The notes under the pieces were generated by a model, which saw only the letters and a list, made by a program, of their open reading frames with translations, did not search any database and was not told the origin of the DNA. From an uncultured Bacteroidales bacterium (GTDB lineage: Bacteria > Bacteroidota > Bacteroidia > Bacteroidales > Paludibacteraceae): DNA of 33,382 nucleotides. Made by a program: the position numbers and the translations under genes. The DNA lies in NCBI GenBank assembly GCA_902771935.1, contig CACXYM010000019.1:1-33382 (forward strand), read 5' to 3'. Positions 15,541 to 25,500 of this stretch are shown piece by piece (positions within the stretch are counted from its first letter, which is position 1; each line of letters starts with the position of its first letter).

Positions 15541-15660
15541 TATTCTCATTTTCATTCCTGTTCGCATTTTCATTCCTGTTCTCATTCTCATTTTCATTCC
15601 TATTCCTATTCCTATTCTCATTCTCATTTTCATTCCTACTCTCATTTTCATTCTCATTCC
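15541..15660. repeat. Hexanucleotide microsatellite, 20 units
   Basis: Twenty 6-nt units run in perfect register over 120 nt with consensus CATTYY (variants CATTTT, CATTCC, CATTCT, TATTCC, TGTTCT). On the minus strand it could be read as a peptide of alternating Asn-Glu and Asn-Arg (73 codons, 15467-15688), but only from a TTG start. The array lies upstream of both divergent promoters. A slippage-prone array here could vary in length between strains. Confidence 0.9.
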
Positions 15661-15696
15661 CCTCCACCAACCACCCCAAAAAACTCAAAATGACAT

Positions 15697-15751
15697 AAGG
15701 TGATTATAAGGTGATTAAAGGGTGATTAAAAGGTTATTAAAAGGTGATTAA
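15697..15751. repeat. Five tandem 11-mers (AAGGTGATTAA)
   Basis: Five contiguous 11-nt units read AAGGTGATTAT, AAGGTGATTAA, AGGGTGATTAA, AAGGTTATTAA and AAGGTGATTAA. The period is close to one helical turn, so equivalent bases face the same side of the DNA. They lie about 85-140 nt upstream of the -33 box of the rightward promoter. A row of protein-binding sites is possible; a simple satellite is the alternative. Confidence 0.85.
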
Positions 15752-15868: not shown

Positions 15869-15904
15869 TCGGCCAAATTATGAGTGCGCACATACGTACG
15901 ACGC

Positions 15905-16837
15905 ATGAGAATTATAAAGTACATACTGTCACTTTTGCTCTTAATCCTAGCAATCCTTCCCGCAAACGCACGGTATTTTCGTCGGGCAGGAAACGTGTCC
16001 GGATTAGGCGGCGACAATTACCACTTCGGTTATATCTCCGGCGGTTTGGGCTATACGAGCCTTCAAGAACGAGTGCCCGACTTTACTCCGTCAGGCGACT
16101 TAGGCGGCCTGGTGGGATTCGGTTACGAATTCCGCAATAACGGGTTGTGGGTGAATGCCGGCCTGCAACTCAGTTTCCATCGTTCCAACGCAACACTCGA
16201 AGCGTACAAATACAACTGCCCGGGTTATGATACACAAGGCAAGGAAGTAACGCTCCATTATACGGTCAGCGAAAAAGACCGCCAGAAGTGGCAATTTATC
16301 GAGATTCCTATTTTGGTCGGATGGTATTCCCACGGCTTTTATGTCGGCGCCGGTCTGAAAGTGGGATATTCGCTCAACTCGAGTATCGTGTCAAGCGGCA
16401 CGTATGAGCTGAGTGCTACAAACGAGTTATACAACATCGAATTCAAAAACATGCCGGAACATGGGTACACTACCTACGAGTTTGAAGGCGAACACACCGC
16501 CTCTCTCAAACCAATGGTTAGTCTGATCGGCGAAATAGGTTACGACGTACTATCGGAAGTGCCAACCCGCAGCCAGTTGTGCCATGTGCTCAAAATAGGC
16601 TTTTACTTCGAATACGGACTGAACAGCATGGTTGAGCCCGTGTCCACCAATGCGCGCCTCAGCATCGACGCAAAGGATGCCACCAAAGCAGTTATCAATC
16701 CGTATTTGGCTTCCGGAATGACAGAAAAATACCGCGTTGTACCTTTCTACACTGGTGTAAAGATAACATACCTGGTCGGTGGCAGCCGTACGGCTCGTGC
16801 AAGTGGCTATCACAAAGGATGTAACTGCTATTACTAA
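15905..16837 (+). CDS. Predicted outer-membrane beta-barrel protein
   Basis: The 310-residue protein begins MRIIKYILSLLLLILAILPA-NA, a clear signal peptide. I chose the ATG at 15905 over the in-frame GTG at 15884 because it gives a cleaner signal peptide and a normal leader length. The mature part has alternating aromatic/hydrophobic strands, for example NYHFGYISGGLGYTSL, GLVGFGYEFRNNGLWVNAGL and IEIPILVGWYSHGFYVGAGL. The last predicted strand is VVPFYTGVKITYLVGG. This pattern fits an OmpA/PorT-like beta-barrel of 8-12 strands. There is no TonB box or plug and no PorP/SprF signature. It ends in a short Cys-containing tail, GYHKGCNCYY. The giant T9SS substrate follows 26 nt later, so the barrel may help anchor or display that protein. 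That link is inferred from position only. Confidence 0.75.
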   Translation: MRIIKYILSLLLLILAILPANARYFRRAGNVSGLGGDNYHFGYISGGLGYTSLQERVPDFTPSGDLGGLVGFGYEFRNNGLWVNAGLQLSFHRSNATLEAYKYNCPGYDTQGKEVTLHYTVSEKDRQKWQFIEIPILVGWYSHGFYVGAGLKVGYSLNSSIVSSGTYELSATNELYNIEFKNMPEHGYTTYEFEGEHTASLKPMVSLIGEIGYDVLSEVPTRSQLCHVLKIGFYFEYGLNSMVEPVSTNARLSIDAKDATKAVINPYLASGMTEKYRVVPFYTGVKITYLVGGSRTARASGYHKGCNCYY

Positions 16838-16863: not shown

Positions 16864-19800
16864 ATGAAGAAATTGCAAACCATATTGATAACTCTGCTTT
16901 TTGGCGCATTACCACTCTTTGCGTCGGGAGGCATTATCAAAACCGATTATATCGACCGATGCACAGGTGACACGGTTTATTTGTCGCTTTTACGCGGCGA
17001 AGAAAAAGTGTTCACGAACACTACCGTTCGCGACACTATTCATGGCCTCGAACCTACCGAAGACAGCATCAATGTGTATGTAGTCACTTTCCATCCCTCA
17101 ATGATTTTCCGCGAGGAAAGGCAATTGCTCAACGGCCAAAGTTTCGTTTGGCATGAACAGACCATTACCGAACAAGGAACGTACCGCGCAGCATACAAAT
17201 CACAATATGGCTGTGACAGCATCTACTACTTAACCGTAACAGCCGTTTCTACCATTATCGAATCACGCGATACAACCGTAACTATCTGTGACGGCCAATC
17301 CTACACATGGAACGGTATTACAGCACACACAACAGGCGATTACTCCAAAACAGTCATCTTGCCCGGAGGCACGCAAATGACATACACCTTGCACCTGATT
17401 GCTAAGATTGTGGATGTCACGAAGATTAACAAGGCCATCTGTTACGGCAGCAGCTATACTTTCGGCGGTAAGGAACTGACTGAACCAGCTTTATACCGCG
17501 ACACGCTTCTGGCAGTTGACGGCTGCGACTCAATCGTAGAACTCACACTTAATGTGCTTTATCCCGACACCACAGTAGTATATCTCGAAGCCGACGAAAA
17601 CGATGCAGCAGTATGGAACGGCGTAACTTACAAGGGACTCGGTGAACATGTCATCCGCACGCAAAACGAAGGAGGATGCTATTCTATAACACGACTAATT
17701 CTACTAGAGCATCGCATTGAACATGTGGATACAACCGCTACTATCTGCGAAGGAGATTTCATTGAGTGGAAAGGAATAACCGCGTACACCGATGGCGATT
17801 ATAAACGCACGGTGGTAGAAAACGGAATAACGATACTATATGGCTTACATCTACACGTTAAGAGTACTCCTGTCACCAAGTTAAGCAAGCAGATTTGCGA
17901 AGGAGACCAGGAGTATTGGCACGGAAAGCTAATTACTCAATCCGGTATCTATCGCGACACCCTACAAGCAGTAGGAGCTTGCGACTCCATCGTAGAATGG
18001 ACTATCAACATCATGCAACCTGATTTGGTGATTGTCACGCACGAATTGGAAGATGGTGAAACCTACCGATGGAACGGAAAAGAGTACAAACAAGCCGGCG
18101 TTTATACGTACCAGACCAAGAACCACTTCGGCTGCGATTCTATTACACGACTGGTACTCACCTCACACAGTGTGGATCGTATCAGTAGATACGACACCAT
18201 CTGTTCCGGCGATTCAGTTAAGTGGAACGGCATAGTCGGCCGCGACACACATATTTACTCTCGCATTGATACACTTCCTTCAGGAGATGTGATTATCTAC
18301 ACCCTGAATCTGGTTGTTAAACAACCTGTTCATGTGACCAAGCCGCTGAGTATATGTACCGGCGATGTACAGTTCTTTAACGGCAAGTATTATGATACTC
18401 CCGGCACGTTCTACGACAGCATCAGTTGCGACACTATCTACAAAGTGATTGTAACACGTCTGCCAAGTAGCGAAACCGTAACAAAAGCTGTGTTTGACGG
18501 AATAACACCATATATTTGGCATTACGCCAATAAGAATGTTTCTGTCTCGCAGGAAGGCGTAAGAGATGAGAATGTGTATAATCCGGAAACAGGTTGTACG
18601 GACCATTATCATCTGGAACTGCATAAACAAGTGGCAGCTACACCACGCACCATCCATTTCTGCGATCCGATTACTTTCAAAGGCAAAGTATATAACTCCG
18701 CCACCACGGTTTATGACACGCTCTATATGCCGAATTATGTGGATTCAATCATTGCCTACCGACTCATCAAAGGCGAACCATTCCGTTCGGTTGAGTCCAT
18801 GACCATACGCGAAGGCGAAACACTCTACTGGCACGGACAGTTGGTATCCAACGAAAATACGTATTACGATGTCAATCAGTCTATTGCAGGTTGCGATAGT
18901 ACCTACGAATTGCATGTAACACTCGTTCCTGTTGTTCAGCCGAGACCAATCTTCACAGAAGTGGCAGAGATTTGTGCCGGTGACACGTATCCCTGGCGCG
19001 GACGCGAATATAGTAGAACGGATATCTACAAAGAGATTGTTCCGGCTGTGCTTCCTGACACGATGGATACAACGTATATGCTCAATCTGACCGTTCATCC
19101 TGCTTACGACACGGCTTATGTGCATTTGTACAATTGTAGCGGAGAAAAGATTACATACGAAGGACAAGATTACTACTCCGATGCAACGGTTATTACAACT
19201 TATCCTTCGCAGCACGGTTGCGATAGTGTCACCAAAGCATTCTTACATTTCAATACCGCATCGTTCCTTTCGGACACTATGCGTTTGGCGGATACTGACA
19301 CTTCACGCGTTTGGCACGGACAGAAAATCAATCACTCCGGAACATATTACTTTGAAGAAAAACTGCCCGGCGGATGTTATCGCCGCGAAGAACTGCACGT
19401 GTTCTTGTATCCGACTTTCCTGCTCGTGAAAGATACGGCTATCTGCCAGAATGAAGCTCCGTATATTTGGCCGGACGCTGCTCCTGCAGAATGGTATAAC
19501 AAAGAATTCAGTTGCAATCCGGGTGAAACAATATCCAAAGAATGGCGCGCCACTACGGTTTATGGAGTGGACAGCATCTATCGCCTAAACCTGACCGTTT
19601 ATCCGAGTTACATTAAACGCGAGCGAATTACTATTTGCGAGGGCGAGAAAGTGCAAGTGAACGGAAAAACGTACTTCAATCTCGTGCCGAATAAGATTTA
19701 TCGCGACACCGTCATTCTACGCACGCTTAATGATTGCGACAGTGTCATCTACTATGAGATCTCACAGAATTCGACAAAGCATATCACAGAGACAAAGATT

Positions 19801-22800
19801 CTTCACACAGGAGATACCATTTTCTGGCAAGGAGACACCATTACTACAGCCGGCCAATACTCTCGCCTTGAGCAGCAAGTAGTAAGCGGCTGCGACAGTA
19901 TTATCGAACTTATCGTTATTGCGGAAACAGAAAACACGCAACATCTCTGCGCCCTGGATACACCATTTGTATGGCAAGGAAAGAATTACTCGACTTCAGG
20001 TAATTACGTGGATACGGTCTTCGACAAAACTACGGGAGCAATCCTCGAATTCCGCACGCTACATCTCTTTGTGCAACATCCTGTTGATACAACCGTCGAA
20101 CTGCGTGGTTGTCAGCCCGAAGGCGTTACATTCAATGGTAAGACCTACACCGAATCGGCACGAAACGTACTGGATACTTTAGGTTGCGACACACTCTATC
20201 ACCTTAATATAAAGATAGACCCGAAGATATCTATCTCTTATTTCGACACTATTTGCGAGACCGACCTGCCGTATATCATCGGTAGTCAGAAACCGGATAC
20301 CATTTGGGAAGAAGGCACATTCACGCACAAAGATATCACAGCCTGCGGCTGCGATAGTATAGTTACTGTCCACTTGACCATTACTCCGGACTTCAACCGT
20401 AACGATTCTGTCTTCCTCTGTGCTTGTGATATCAGTAAGCAGAAACCGTATATCTTAGGCGAACTCAACAATCCTAAGTTCGCCGAGAAAGAAGGCGGAA
20501 AATATGCTAATGCATGGCAAGGCAATTGGAAAGGTATCAAATATACAGAAGATACCATTATCTGGAACTGTGCAAAGACCCATTACTTCCACATTATCGT
20601 TCGTCCACAGGCCATAATAGACTCAACTTATTACTTGTGCGAACTGGATACCTTGCATTTCGGCTACTTCTCCAACGGACAGCGCCAACTCATCACCAAA
20701 GAAGGTATATACTACGATACTGTTCGGGCCGAATCAGGTTGGATAGATCCGCAATCGCACGGAGGATATCATTATTCCGATACACTCAACTGTGATAGTA
20801 TCATCAAGCTGACCGTGTACATGCGGCCTGCTTATCGCGACACGATTGAGAAACATATTCCGCAAGGTGATTCTATCCTTTGGGGTGGCACATATAAACA
20901 TTATTCCGGCCTGTATTCGGATTCTATTACTAACTTACCTGACAAAGATTCACAAGGCGAATATTGCCACGCCGTACATACCTTGCGCCTGTTCGTGGAT
21001 TCCGTCTATCTACTGCGCGATACGATTGATGTCTGCAATGTGCCGAGTAAGACATTGACACATGTTTGGGCAGACGGCTACAGACAAAAGTTCACCACAC
21101 CGCTGACAGCTCAATCGAAACACTATTACGATTCGCTTGAGACGAAAGTGCATCACTTCGATAGCATCTACGATTTGTACGTTAACTTCAATATCACGCC
21201 AATAACATATATTGATAGCGCAATCTGTTCTGGAGATTCCATTGTCTTCGGTATTGATGGAGCATCCAAACCGCGTTATCTCAAGTCCACCGGTGTTTAT
21301 CAGGATACGCTCAAGGCGGTTAACGGTTGCGACTCCATTATCAAACTGACGCTTAATGTCTATCCGCTGTTCAGCAGGAACTACTTCGTAGATATCGCAG
21401 ACACAGATACACCTTATATCTGGGAACACAAAAAACAAGGTGTGCTCATATCCAAAGATACACTCCGCGCTAGTGGAACCTATTCATATCATTGGGAGTC
21501 TGTCTTCGGTTGTGATAGTGTGGATAACTTAATCTTCGAGATACATAACACCTACAACTATCACGATACGGTGACTCTCTGTCGTTCCGAACTGCCGTAC
21601 ACATGGCGCGATAGTTTGGGCCATATCTTCCGCGAAAATATCGAGTTAGAAGGAACATATATCAAACGCTTCCTGACGAAAGATCACTATGACAGCGTTT
21701 ACAACTTGACCGTTATCGTTAAACCTATTTTCGAACGGGATACCTTTATTTGGAACTGCGCGGGCGATTCGATACAGTTCAACCATAAGAAATATACCAA
21801 ACCCGGTATCTATCGCGATACCATGCGTACCATTGACGATTGCGATTCCGTAATCATCATCCACTACGCATGGTACGAGAAATACTATATTCGCAAAACT
21901 GCACAAACAGATGACAAGGCACCATATCTGTGGCTGCAAGGAGACGGAACAACACGTACTCTAACAAAATCCGGTGTATACTTCGACTCGCTTACGACAG
22001 TCAATGGGTGTGACTCTATTATTGAACTCACACTTAACGTCTATCCTACTTATCGTTTCGAGGAGAACCAGACCATCTGCGAATCGGAAACACCGTACTT
22101 ATGGCGTGGCAGACAATACTGGACATCCGGCGTTTACACGGATAGCATGCAGACTAAGATGCATTACGACTCTATCTTCGTGCTGAATCTCAACGTGCGT
22201 GATACAACTTACGTGAACATGCATTTCAAGATATGCCGCGGCGAGAGCTTTGAATATAATGGCAAAACATACTCACACGGAGGCGTATGGACCGATACCT
22301 TGTCTGCAGTTAACGGCTGCGACTCGATTGTTGTTATTCGCGTTCAAGAACTGCCAAACTATCTCTTCTCCGATACAGCTGCTGTAGCAAATCGTCAGCC
22401 GTATATATGGAGAGGCAAAACACTTACACATACCGGTATTTATCGCGACACACTCGATTCTTCTACCGGTTGCGACTCTATCTATCAGTTGGTATTGACC
22501 GTATATGACAAAGAACAATTGCGCGATACTGTTATTACCGTATGTGAAAACGATTTGCCTGTCCGCTGGAAAAATCGCTGGTTGTCTGAGCAGAAACTCT
22601 TCTACGACACTATTACTACGGGCGATGTAGATACTATCTGGCGCGTTGATTTTCGCGTCGTACGGATGGAATATCAGACAATAGAGCAAACGTTGTGCGA
22701 AGGTGATGTTTGCCACTTCAACGGCAAGGAATACCGAAGGGATACGCTACTACATGAAGTCGTTTATTCCGGTTATGGTTGCGGAACGGAGTACACACTC

Positions 22801-25500
22801 TATCTGCGTTTCCGCAAACCGCATATCATCCAACTCGAGGCTAAGACCAGTAGCGACAAACCATATCGTTGGAACGTAGAAGATACGACGTATACATTTG
22901 GCTTCGGCGGCAACTATGAACATATAGTGCGCACCAAAGATAACCAATGTGACTCTATTATCTACAAACTCCATTTGACTGTCGGATCGGTTTATCTGTT
23001 TAAAGACTCTACTATCCTTTGCCAATCAGACTTGCCGTATAGATGGCACAACCAGCTCATTTACAACACCGGTTTATACTACGACTCGTTGCAGTCGCAA
23101 ATGGGTTACGACTCCGTTTACATACTGAAAGTACTGCAAATTATGCCTTCGTATTATGAAGAGCAAATTATCAATCTCTGCGAAGGAGCCGGCGCATTCT
23201 ATTACAGAGGTAAAGCATACAGTCAGAAGGGCATCTTCTACGACACAATTCCTTCTATCAACGGCTGCGACTCTATCTTTAAGATTACGGTGCGCGTAAT
23301 GCCTACTTACGAGATTTATGACACAGTGCATATTTCCGATCGCCAGACCCACTATTTCCATGGGCGCGAGCTTTCTGTGCCCGGACCGTATATCTACTAT
23401 GGCAAAACGAAAGCCGGATGCGACTCCATTGAGCACCTGCAGTTGTATGTTCATCCGTCGTACCTGTTTGTAGAAGAGAATGAGTTATGTAACAAGGACA
23501 CCTTGATATGGCATAATCGAGTACTCTATGAGAGTGGCGTTTACTACGATTCGCTGCTATCCGTACAAGGCTATGACTCTGTATATAAACTGAAACTCAC
23601 CGTCTACCCGACTTACTATAAGGAAGAGTCTATCGAGATTTGTCCGAATACCTCCACCTGGCTGCACGAGATGAATATCTCCGAACCCGGTGTATATTAC
23701 GACACGCTCTACTCCGTTCATGGTTGCGATTCTATCTTCAAGATTACAGTCAATCTCAAACGCTCGTTCCGACAAGAGTTCACCACCGAGATTTGTCAAG
23801 GCGAAGAATACATGTTCTTCGGTGTGCCGTACACTAAGAGTGGTACCTATAAATATGAAATAGGTTGTGATTCTATCATCACTATGCACCTTATCGTTCA
23901 TCCGAGAGACATCACCGAAAAGCGTGTTGTCATATGCGACGAAGACTTGCCTTATCGCTATAACGGCGAAGAATACTGGGAAACCAAAGTATATGTAGAT
24001 ACATTCAAGAACGTTCATGCGTGTGACAGTATCTTCAAGCTCAACTTGATTGTCTCCACACATGTTTCCGACTGGGATCAGATTCCGCTTTGCCCGGGTG
24101 CCGATATACGCATTGATGGTCAAGTCATTACGGAACCGGGACAATACACTTTCCTCAAACGCTCAAAGGTATCCGGTCTGTTGGATAGCCTCTATCGGGT
24201 AGAAGTATACAACGCTCCCGCTTACGAGACTTGGGATACACTTGCCGTCTGCCAAGGTGACACAGTTATCTTCGACGGCAAACAGCTCACGCGAGGCGGA
24301 GCATATACGGAAACGAAGAAGACAGTCAACAACTGCGATAGTATCCGTCACTTGTATCTCATTATTAACCCGACCTATACTTACACTACACCTGCCGCCA
24401 TCACAGATTACCAAACGTATATATGGCGAGGCAAAGAGTATAAAGAGGCCGGAACGTACTACCAGTCCTACCCGACCATCGATTACTGCGATAGTACCTA
24501 TGTGCTCGAACTCACTGTGGTCAATACACGGCGCGTGGTAGATAGCACGGCTATCTGTTCCGGCAGTTCCGCTATCTGGCGCGGACGCGAATTGAGTGCC
24601 CCTGGTATCTACAACGATACCGTTTGCAACTTGGCAAGCCTGACCTCAATTATCTACTCGCTCAAGTTAACCGTCGTTACGCCGACTGTCATCACCGAAG
24701 CATCTATCGCAGATGTTTCAGCCGATGCAGAGTCGTTTAACATTGATTTCACCTACTCCGGTCTGCGTCCGGAGCGTTATAGCATCACCTTTGACGACTT
24801 GGCGCACCAACAAGGCTTTGCCGACATTATTGACGAGCCGTTTGGACCGGAAGTAATAGCGGTTGTGCCGATACCGCATAAGGATAAAATCATTTATCAA
24901 GACCACACGGTTTATGTTAGACCGAATCGCTATACGATGCGATTAGCTTTAGACAATGGTGTCTGCGGTGTATCTCGCTCTGATAGTCTCACGCTGCTCA
25001 TTCGTTACCCGAACTGGGTTCTTGAGCAGAACTGGGATAATGTTGTCGTTCCACTCCGCAAAGAATACAATGGCGGCTACGAGTTCGGCAATTACGCGTG
25101 GTACATCAACAACGTACTCTTCGACAATAACGGTAGCCCATATCTATACACCAACACGCTCAAACGAGGTGATCAAGTAGTCCTTTACGCAACCCGCGTT
25201 GGAGAAAGTTATGCTATTCCTACCGCACCATTGGAGATAAAAGCTCCTGAACCTAACGTTTTCGACAAACCGGTATTGGTTGCCCCAACATCCACGCCGA
25301 AGACACAAGCACGTGTAAAACTGAAAGCCGAAACTGATGGTACATATAAGGTATATAACGCTACCGGACAACTATTCTCCACCGGCAACTTCACGTATGG
25401 AGAACAAATCATCGATGTACCGGCTACATCCGGATGCTGCTTCGTGCAGACAACCACTGTTGATGGAGACATTACAACAACAAAAATTATTGTATATTAA
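16864..25500 (+). CDS. Giant T9SS-exported protein with about 47 CDSI repeats
   Basis: The 2878-residue protein starts with a signal peptide (MKKLQTILITLLFGALPLFA). From about residue 80 to 2605 it consists of about 47 tandem units averaging 54 residues. A typical unit reads IC-x-GD...FNGK-x-Y...GIY-x-DTL...NGCDSI-x-L-x-LTV-x-P. Units are of three kinds: two cysteines, end cysteine only, or start cysteine only, and they recur mostly in the order two/end/start. Residues about 2606-2800 form a non-repeated region (YPNWVLEQNWDNVVVPL, then GGYEFGNYAWYINNVLF) seen in Bacteroidales surface proteins. The last 65 or so residues (YKVYNATGQLFSTGNF ... KIIVY) fit the T9SS type A sorting domain (TIGR04183-like). 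The protein is thus probably exported to the cell surface as a long fibre or adhesin. I do not recognise a catalytic domain. It shares a promoter with the upstream beta-barrel gene. Confidence 0.85.
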   Translation: MKKLQTILITLLFGALPLFASGGIIKTDYIDRCTGDTVYLSLLRGEEKVFTNTTVRDTIHGLEPTEDSINVYVVTFHPSMIFREERQLLNGQSFVWHEQTITEQGTYRAAYKSQYGCDSIYYLTVTAVSTIIESRDTTVTICDGQSYTWNGITAHTTGDYSKTVILPGGTQMTYTLHLIAKIVDVTKINKAICYGSSYTFGGKELTEPALYRDTLLAVDGCDSIVELTLNVLYPDTTVVYLEADENDAAVWNGVTYKGLGEHVIRTQNEGGCYSITRLILLEHRIEHVDTTATICEGDFIEWKGITAYTDGDYKRTVVENGITILYGLHLHVKSTPVTKLSKQICEGDQEYWHGKLITQSGIYRDTLQAVGACDSIVEWTINIMQPDLVIVTHELEDGETYRWNGKEYKQAGVYTYQTKNHFGCDSITRLVLTSHSVDRISRYDTICSGDSVKWNGIVGRDTHIYSRIDTLPSGDVIIYTLNLVVKQPVHVTKPLSICTGDVQFFNGKYYDTPGTFYDSISCDTIYKVIVTRLPSSETVTKAVFDGITPYIWHYANKNVSVSQEGVRDENVYNPETGCTDHYHLELHKQVAATPRTIHFCDPITFKGKVYNSATTVYDTLYMPNYVDSIIAYRLIKGEPFRSVESMTIREGETLYWHGQLVSNENTYYDVNQSIAGCDSTYELHVTLVPVVQPRPIFTEVAEICAGDTYPWRGREYSRTDIYKEIVPAVLPDTMDTTYMLNLTVHPAYDTAYVHLYNCSGEKITYEGQDYYSDATVITTYPSQHGCDSVTKAFLHFNTASFLSDTMRLADTDTSRVWHGQKINHSGTYYFEEKLPGGCYRREELHVFLYPTFLLVKDTAICQNEAPYIWPDAAPAEWYNKEFSCNPGETISKEWRATTVYGVDSIYRLNLTVYPSYIKRERITICEGEKVQVNGKTYFNLVPNKIYRDTVILRTLNDCDSVIYYEISQNSTKHITETKILHTGDTIFWQGDTITTAGQYSRLEQQVVSGCDSIIELIVIAETENTQHLCALDTPFVWQGKNYSTSGNYVDTVFDKTTGAILEFRTLHLFVQHPVDTTVELRGCQPEGVTFNGKTYTESARNVLDTLGCDTLYHLNIKIDPKISISYFDTICETDLPYIIGSQKPDTIWEEGTFTHKDITACGCDSIVTVHLTITPDFNRNDSVFLCACDISKQKPYILGELNNPKFAEKEGGKYANAWQGNWKGIKYTEDTIIWNCAKTHYFHIIVRPQAIIDSTYYLCELDTLHFGYFSNGQRQLITKEGIYYDTVRAESGWIDPQSHGGYHYSDTLNCDSIIKLTVYMRPAYRDTIEKHIPQGDSILWGGTYKHYSGLYSDSITNLPDKDSQGEYCHAVHTLRLFVDSVYLLRDTIDVCNVPSKTLTHVWADGYRQKFTTPLTAQSKHYYDSLETKVHHFDSIYDLYVNFNITPITYIDSAICSGDSIVFGIDGASKPRYLKSTGVYQDTLKAVNGCDSIIKLTLNVYPLFSRNYFVDIADTDTPYIWEHKKQGVLISKDTLRASGTYSYHWESVFGCDSVDNLIFEIHNTYNYHDTVTLCRSELPYTWRDSLGHIFRENIELEGTYIKRFLTKDHYDSVYNLTVIVKPIFERDTFIWNCAGDSIQFNHKKYTKPGIYRDTMRTIDDCDSVIIIHYAWYEKYYIRKTAQTDDKAPYLWLQGDGTTRTLTKSGVYFDSLTTVNGCDSIIELTLNVYPTYRFEENQTICESETPYLWRGRQYWTSGVYTDSMQTKMHYDSIFVLNLNVRDTTYVNMHFKICRGESFEYNGKTYSHGGVWTDTLSAVNGCDSIVVIRVQELPNYLFSDTAAVANRQPYIWRGKTLTHTGIYRDTLDSSTGCDSIYQLVLTVYDKEQLRDTVITVCENDLPVRWKNRWLSEQKLFYDTITTGDVDTIWRVDFRVVRMEYQTIEQTLCEGDVCHFNGKEYRRDTLLHEVVYSGYGCGTEYTLYLRFRKPHIIQLEAKTSSDKPYRWNVEDTTYTFGFGGNYEHIVRTKDNQCDSIIYKLHLTVGSVYLFKDSTILCQSDLPYRWHNQLIYNTGLYYDSLQSQMGYDSVYILKVLQIMPSYYEEQIINLCEGAGAFYYRGKAYSQKGIFYDTIPSINGCDSIFKITVRVMPTYEIYDTVHISDRQTHYFHGRELSVPGPYIYYGKTKAGCDSIEHLQLYVHPSYLFVEENELCNKDTLIWHNRVLYESGVYYDSLLSVQGYDSVYKLKLTVYPTYYKEESIEICPNTSTWLHEMNISEPGVYYDTLYSVHGCDSIFKITVNLKRSFRQEFTTEICQGEEYMFFGVPYTKSGTYKYEIGCDSIITMHLIVHPRDITEKRVVICDEDLPYRYNGEEYWETKVYVDTFKNVHACDSIFKLNLIVSTHVSDWDQIPLCPGADIRIDGQVITEPGQYTFLKRSKVSGLLDSLYRVEVYNAPAYETWDTLAVCQGDTVIFDGKQLTRGGAYTETKKTVNNCDSIRHLYLIINPTYTYTTPAAITDYQTYIWRGKEYKEAGTYYQSYPTIDYCDSTYVLELTVVNTRRVVDSTAICSGSSAIWRGRELSAPGIYNDTVCNLASLTSIIYSLKLTVVTPTVITEASIADVSADAESFNIDFTYSGLRPERYSITFDDLAHQQGFADIIDEPFGPEVIAVVPIPHKDKIIYQDHTVYVRPNRYTMRLALDNGVCGVSRSDSLTLLIRYPNWVLEQNWDNVVVPLRKEYNGGYEFGNYAWYINNVLFDNNGSPYLYTNTLKRGDQVVLYATRVGESYAIPTAPLEIKAPEPNVFDKPVLVAPTSTPKTQARVKLKAETDGTYKVYNATGQLFSTGNFTYGEQIIDVPATSGCCFVQTTTVDGDITTTKIIVY

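Follow-up and report, generated by a model that had tools for sequence, protein, structure and literature searches.

In a giant tandem-repeat protein of an uncultured Bacteroidales bacterium and in its homologs, the start cysteine of one unit, s(i), and the end cysteine of the next, e(i+1), are kept or lost together. Given this co-retention, the likely bond at every junction is the one from s(i) to e(i+1). The gene lies in the stretch of 33,382 nucleotides that was analysed (hereafter the window; Table 1). The explanation that we find fairly probable when taken as a whole is a fibre exported by the type IX system, whose domains would be stapled to one another by s(i)-e(i+1) disulfides, with a block that had lost one pair duplicated along the gene and the unstapled joints acting as hinges.

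Three kinds of unit and their order

A unit can carry a start cysteine (s, consensus TICxGD) and an end cysteine (e, GCDSI): kind C has both, kind A only e and kind B only s. The unit HMM, built from the giant protein itself, lists 45 units, and two units that it missed were found by eye, an N-terminal one of kind B (Cys33) and one of kind A at Cys578. Profile alignment and cysteine scoring confirmed the three kinds that a preliminary description of this DNA had claimed, as well as their mostly C-A-B order (10 triplets, against a mean of 1.3 and a maximum of 6 in 2000 shuffles) and its five perfect triplets, which are numbered 24-38 in the HMM listing. The claim that A is nearly always followed by B also held: 12 of the 13 A units have a contiguous next unit, and that unit is B in 12/12 cases, above all 2000 shuffles (mean 3.9, max 9). 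Unit 41 is of kind C in the window protein and of kind A in two close orthologs. When the cysteine sites are left out, the similarity between units still peaks at lag 3 (0.233 vs. 0.188 ± 0.010; 0 of 1000 shuffles reach it), which supports the further claim that the array spread by triplet duplication; the same peak is found in two orthologs, and units three apart are on average 23% identical. Other large ORFs with related units occur in the same genome (contigs C1, C3 and C14), and inspection by eye shows no clear C-A-B periodicity in them. Several units have an additional cysteine two positions ahead of the end one (CGCDS, CHCDS, CRCDS or CNCDS), at residue 1161 of the window protein (DNA 20344-20346), near residue 1008 in L078 and L080, and in L070, L048, L051, L055 and L058.

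Table 1. Features of the giant gene and its upstream neighbor in the window
Feature	Positions	Strand	Basis
Upstream 317-aa protein, possibly an outer-membrane beta-barrel	15884..16837	+	Weak NF049866 match
Giant repeat protein ORF, 2878 aa, 74 Cys	16864..25500	+	ORF list, Cys list
Probable signal peptide, residues 1-21	16864..16926	+	Hydrophobic N-terminus, by eye
Array of ~51-aa units, residues about 25-2604, mostly C-A-B	16936..24675	+	Unit HMM
First predicted staple, Cys33 (unit 0, kind B) to Cys117 (unit 1, kind A)	16960..17214	+	Pairing rule
First predicted unstapled A/B junction, Cys117 of A1 to Cys142 of B2	17212..17289	+	Hand assignment
Five perfect C-A-B triplets, HMM units 24-38, residues 1453-2247	21220..23604	+	Unit HMM
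Cys2358, start Cys of unit 41, partnerless under the pairing rule	23935..23937	+	Ortholog comparison
Last predicted staple, Cys2565 (last unit, kind B) to Cys2701 in the next domain	24556..24966	+	Orthologs
C-terminal non-repeat domains	24676..25299	+	s46/e47 Cys pair absent on both sides here
Type IX secretion type A sorting domain (TIGR04183), residues 2813-2877	25300..25494	+	Profile scan

The source genome (2.06 Mb in 46 contigs, 95% complete) has as its closest named relatives found three uncultured Bacteroidales, including L080, a Paludibacteraceae bacterium from goat reticulum, whose malate dehydrogenase is 98% identical to the one adjoining the giant gene. The giant protein matches 31 of 41 near genomes (source genome included), and a profile for which all-C and mixed arrays were aligned together matches 100 of the 294 genomes drawn from the order. 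Our homolog sample comprised 40 regions, 60 more (one in common) and three closest-relative loci, and a second pass of the unit count over the homologs covered 122 ORFs and 1639 units. These were divided into the ortholog group (window included), the other members of the genus (genus others) and the outside group, where L168 (same genus) is counted outside in the tally of 742 units and the outside group includes one genome of the same family (L142). Units in blocks in the outside group are 683 C, 41 A and 18 B, and cysteine-free units number 0 of 742. The junction counts and the replacement-cysteine count drop units below 12 bits, s-to-e spacings outside 22-40 and e-to-next-s spacings outside 18-28, and a cysteine within two residues of a site is counted as present. 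The array-end test drops ORFs with fewer than four units or with an end at a contig edge, and last units that score below 12 bits or lie more than 22 residues after the preceding unit; L054, a near-copy of L045, was dropped from this test and from the lag scan.

Cysteines kept or lost together across junctions

The presence of s(i) agrees with that of e(i+1) at 35 of 35 junctions in the window protein (both/only s/only e/neither, 24/0/0/11), 294 of 297 in the ortholog group with the window included (194/1/2/100), 242 of 249 in the genus others (200/1/6/42) and 624 of 630 outside (614/0/6/10). Among all 1176 junctions, the 16 mismatches proved by eye to be six misregistered start cysteines that are in fact present, four contig edges and six real cases, the last all in the 249 junctions of the genus others (L066, L071, L045, its near-copy L054, L070 and L047). 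In the ortholog group, s(i) and e(i) mismatch in 65% of cases, and e(i) and s(i+1) in 59%. Covariation over 1164 unit dimers gives the same pair as the strongest inter-unit signal (z 19.2 for s(i)-e(i+1); next 7.3). A lag scan under a looser filter found 3 mismatches of s(i) with e(i+1) in 304 in the ortholog group, 18 in 286 in the genus others and 7 in 638 outside (phi 0.98, 0.80 and 0.76). All other site pairs lie between -0.16 and 0.18 in the genus others; outside they reach at most 0.38, at the distances of period-3 echoes, and such echoes are strong in the periodic ortholog group. The scan ruled out a pairing of s with s or of e with e.

The junction counts alone also fit the rule given in the preliminary description, in which C is self-closing and A, through its end cysteine, is bonded to the start cysteine of B, because A nearly always precedes B there. 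The A-before-B counts suit that rule as well as s(i)-e(i+1), and so do the even runs of cysteine sites, with 21 of 21 inner runs even in the window (even/odd: window 21/0; ortholog group 196/3; genus others 71/17; outside 25/0). Assigned by hand, it pairs 64 of the 74 window cysteines and leaves 10 over, Cys33 and Cys2701 included, vs. 66 paired and eight partnerless under the s(i)-e(i+1) rule (with 1163 taken over 1161, and 1186 over 1188, by choice). In the two non-periodic groups, its two bonds find little echo, with phi of -0.16 and -0.04 for s(i) with e(i), and of 0.06 and 0.02 for e(i) with s(i+1). Moreover, loss of the self-closing bond should leave cysteine-free units, and the outside group has none among its 742 units but 13 A-B pairs. 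Together with the array ends, C-terminal domains and geometry described below, these results make that rule very improbable: pairing of cysteines across unit boundaries is supported, by the co-retention of s(i) and e(i+1), whereas self-closure of C and an A-end to B-start bond are not, and A/B would be a joint without a staple. An idea of cysteine pairs every 1.5 units on equivalent half-unit sites, which fitted the run parity, turned out to be the same rule in other words and was dropped on covariation, junction counts and array ends.

The comparison with orthologs points to the same pairing. Two full-length orthologs (77 and 79% identity) keep 71 of the 74 cysteines, and the three that are not conserved (1188, 1950 and 2358) are all unpaired under the s(i)-e(i+1) rule; Cys 884, 1161 and 2588 are conserved yet unpaired. 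The position of Cys2358 is Ser or Ala in two close orthologs and Cys in the more distant L058. At the last staple of Table 1, Cys2565 and Cys2701 are both present in 9/9 orthologs having that C-terminal end. At orthologous junction 39/40 (by eye), both cysteines are present in the window, L078, L058 and L080, and neither in L059, L060, L061 and L113.

Part of this pattern could come from block duplication alone, that is, from the copying of one C-A-B block whose cysteine placement involves no bond, and the lag-3 identity peak in the window and two orthologs is what such copying would leave. The same co-loss, however, is found in non-periodic arrays, both in the genus and outside, and in the non-repeat C-terminal domains, and units only 23% identical at a distance of three have nevertheless kept 71 of 74 cysteines between orthologs. 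Lost pairs are seen in arrays of the order-survey families f1, f2, f50 and f77, and in L121 unit 2, of kind B, is 81% identical to the neighboring C unit, a loss beside a near-identical unit that copying of a block does not explain. These observations suggest independent losses, and the loss in L121 is likely both recent and independent. Duplication without a bond is therefore the least probable of the alternatives that we weighed. Among the homologs, the co-loss of s(i) and e(i+1) recurs in all groups, and in the outside arrays 683 of 742 units are of kind C.

Array ends, exceptions and geometry

The kind of the last unit also varies with what follows it. Among outside arrays with a tail of at most 110 aa, 13 of 14, from six families of the order, end in kind A, and the fourteenth (L117) ends in an assembly N-run; of those with a longer tail (>110 aa), 36/36 end in kind C. 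Ten of the 13 short tails after A-ending arrays were scanned, and all 10 are sorting domains, a domain that is cleaved off in Porphyromonas gingivalis according to part of PMC4804311. A cysteine in a long tail would be unsurprising alone, the kind of the last unit being the informative part; thus the last start cysteine appears to be kept where a further domain follows, and the rule of the preliminary description gives no reason for A before the sorting domain in 13/14. Without the filters, the outside arrays are 18 A-ending (8 without any later cysteine), 37 C-ending and 1 B-ending, and in the A-ending long-tailed ones (L119, L127 and L112) the last unit is gapped or weak. The genus group has two C-ending arrays with short tails (L064 and L049), and among its longer tails 16 end in C, 7 in A and 1 in neither, one of the A-ending arrays lacking any cysteine before the last 80 aa. 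In the ortholog group, 9 long-tailed arrays end in B, and a single frame-broken piece ends in A. On the N-terminal side, four ORFs lack an upstream cysteine; two of them start with B, as expected (L161 and L069), and two with C (L117, at an N-run, and L079, at a broken frame).

The co-loss extends beyond the repeats. The first C-terminal alignment held 17 proteins, 9 orthologs and 8 picked for cysteines at like distances; when the test was repeated without picking, the 31 of 43 genus and ortholog ORFs that have a homologous C-terminus were scored. In the 9 orthologs the s46/e47 pair is present in five and missing in four (window, L078, L080 and L079), and it is never split, a co-loss that the self-closing rule leaves unexplained. 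The 22 genus others gave 15 with both and 7 with e47 only by machine count; by eye, s46 is present in four of the seven and missing in L064 and L049, with L063 unsettled. Both tails lacking s46 have a cysteine 11 or 12 residues after e46. For the start cysteine of the last unit and e46, the machine count over the 31 proteins was 23 both, 4 neither (L041, L044, L047 and L071), 3 s only and 1 e only; two of the three s-only cases (L064 and L049) do have the e46 cysteine by eye, and L066 keeps e46 with no start cysteine in a weakly scored last unit. Across the 17 aligned C-termini, Cys2588 and Cys2859 are confined to four proteins (window, L078, L080 and L079), all of them lacking s46/e47; Cys2858 is found in the same four plus L058.

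Several observations run counter to the rule. Going by raw HMM calls, the unit after A is of kind C in 11 of 24 outside cases and in 13 of 71 among the genus others. Eight of the 11 outside cases have a cysteine 31-58 residues before e, which indicates longer units rather than kind A, and three lie at ORF edges. In five of the six real mismatches s is lost and the e of the next unit kept, and in four of these five another cysteine lies 11 (L045 and L054, unit 10) or 14 (L047 and L071, unit 5) residues after e(i), although these four look like two pairs of related proteins. An extra cysteine 9-14 residues after e is found at 7 of 1008 junctions with both cysteines and 0 of 152 with neither, a count made post hoc after the pattern had been seen in L045 and the tails. 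Since the strand register sets e(i)+11 beside the lost s(i), it is possible that an extra cysteine 11-14 residues after e compensates for the lost start cysteine.

The geometry was drawn from covariation computed with the cysteine columns masked. It indicates parallel pairing, at offset 11, between the stretch preceding s and the one following e (mean z 2.3, vs. 1.5 at offset 9 and 1.6 at 13), and antiparallel pairing of the segments flanking e (2.9). In Ig-like folds the first and last strand pair in parallel. By this register the two cysteines of a unit would sit at the two ends of a strand, about 11 residues or some 35 Å apart, probably too far for the self-closure of C. The masked neighborhoods of s(i) and e(i+1) score 1.67 (null 0.05 ± 0.12; 0/40), those of e(i) and s(i+1) 0.71, also above null (0.12 ± 0.11), and those of s(i) and e(i) 0.73. 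Same-site neighborhoods outscore s(i)-e(i+1) (s-s in all dimers; s-s and e-e in all-C dimers), and since the similarity of neighboring units could cause these high scores, we take neighborhood covariation as supporting evidence only.

A proposed stapled fibre and its relation to known systems

Taken together, these results suggest that the protein is a fibre, either secreted or at the cell surface, which is built of small beta-sandwich domains in tandem (probably Ig-like) and uses the type IX system for export. A disulfide between s(i) and e(i+1) would staple each of its domains to the next. In the homologs sampled from outside the genus (all-C arrays), the pair is present at nearly every junction. 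In the giant gene, duplication of a block that had lost one pair would account for the absence of the pair at mostly every third junction (A/B); A and B would then flank a junction that no longer has its bond. The fibre would read (B=C=A)/(B=C=A), with stapled triads linked by unstapled joints; that these joints act as hinges is the least certain step. By hand assignment, the pairing rule divides the giant protein into 49 domain-like units, from unit 0 to the C-terminal domain with Cys2701, with 33 stapled and 15 unstapled of 48 junctions (the A1/B2 junction of Table 1 and 14 more downstream). The stapled runs hold 2, 3, 3, 3, 2, 3, 3, 6, 3, 3, 3, 3, 3, 4, 3 and 2 domains, B=C=A being the commonest block. 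This pattern suggests short stiff segments joined by looser joints. The disulfide-stapled fibre of the preliminary description is thus retained as regards stapling across boundaries and revised as to which cysteines pair: the protein is probably a type IX fibre stapled by disulfides, in which joints that lack a staple recur at regular spacing. A stronger statement, in which disulfides form a stiff or loose code set junction by junction, the triad-and-hinge block was amplified in one clade and an unrecognised oxidant makes some 33 bonds per chain, is offered tentatively, and we consider it unlikely in full.

The match to TIGR04183 is marginal (23.3 bits vs. a cut-off of 23), and Pfam listed no sorting-domain match at E 10 in a whole-protein scan. 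The Pfam scan of the window protein gave no family above cut-off, the repeats being uncovered, and no recognised adhesive domain; neither Pfam nor NCBIfam scans of the whole protein gave a curated Ig-like profile. A PDB profile search returned weak antibody light chain matches (best 0.0018 for the whole sequence, 0.24 for the better stretch). The source genome has a type IX translocon component (SprA_N match of 599 bits in an open frame of 2520 aa). The 317-aa gene ends 26 bases upstream of the giant gene and adjoins it in 6 of 9 ortholog loci (L078, L079, L080, L159, L058 and L061), the sequence examined in the other three (L059, L060 and L113) ending within the giant gene; its NF049866 match reaches 22.2 bits (cut-off 135), and its product may be an anchor or partner of the giant protein. 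Short tandem repeats at 15541-15751 (6/18/36 bp, then five copies of an 11-bp unit) sit between an S12-like gene on the minus strand and the 317-aa gene.

The pair s(i)/e(i+1) could also be real without being a disulfide within one chain, its cysteines being reduced thiols, a metal site or inter-chain bonds. VKOR, DsbA and DsbB have no match at E 0.001 in the source genome (95% complete), so that no known periplasmic oxidase was found there, and VKOR matches 16 of the 294 genomes of the order, three of these 16 (G104, G116 and G201) belonging to the 100 with arrays; covariation, too, is blind to intra- versus inter-chain pairing. Against a metal site, two cysteines alone make a poor one. In addition, the Asp that follows the end site is present in 66% of 181 e-lost units vs. 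96% of 996 C units; a metal co-ligand should disappear along with the end cysteine, whereas this residue only becomes rarer. We regard these readings jointly as improbable, though less so than the other two alternatives. Given the lack of oxidase matches, either another oxidant acts, or the cysteines are oxidised extracellularly, or no disulfide is formed by the pair. If the stapled fibre is real, the rule would predict from sequence which joints are cross-linked in a large unannotated class of Bacteroidales fibres and would make available, for mechanical work, a naturally occurring series of joints with and without staples; it would also leave to be explained how the cysteines are oxidised in a bacterium that has no recognised Dsb or VKOR oxidase.

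We found no description of the s(i)-e(i+1) rule in the literature searched (open-licence PMC papers). The CHU_C-associated Ig-like domain Ig_7 (PF19081) has by eye a similar motif order, a start Cys and a GC near the end, at a spacing of about 45 vs. about 28 in the giant-protein units; it matches 3 of 30 segments of the unit family and not the window protein. Extension of the pairing rule to longer Ig_7-like domains was abandoned because the profile merged with the unit profile. Cytophagalysin has, in part of PMC11674741, Ig-like domains of Bacteroidetes and a predicted disulfide between two neighboring domains, one such bond joining the catalytic domain to D3 in the predicted model; the part consulted has no repeated pairing rule, unlike the giant protein. 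Fibrillar adhesins with CHU_C or Por_Secre_tail anchors, as presented in part of PMC8286594, are Bacteroidetes proteins with stalk domains and these tails, and the words disulfide and cysteine are absent from the main text of that paper by term count. The giant protein shares with them a repetitive stalk (45 HMM units) and differs in having no Pfam domain above cut-off. RTX adhesin extender regions, as described in part of PMC7493085, are long tandem beta-sandwich stalks whose linkers are stiffened by calcium. The likeness would lie in a long tandem stalk with stiffened inter-domain joints, as proposed here, and the difference in the junction element, which in the giant protein is a cysteine pair present or absent at each junction.
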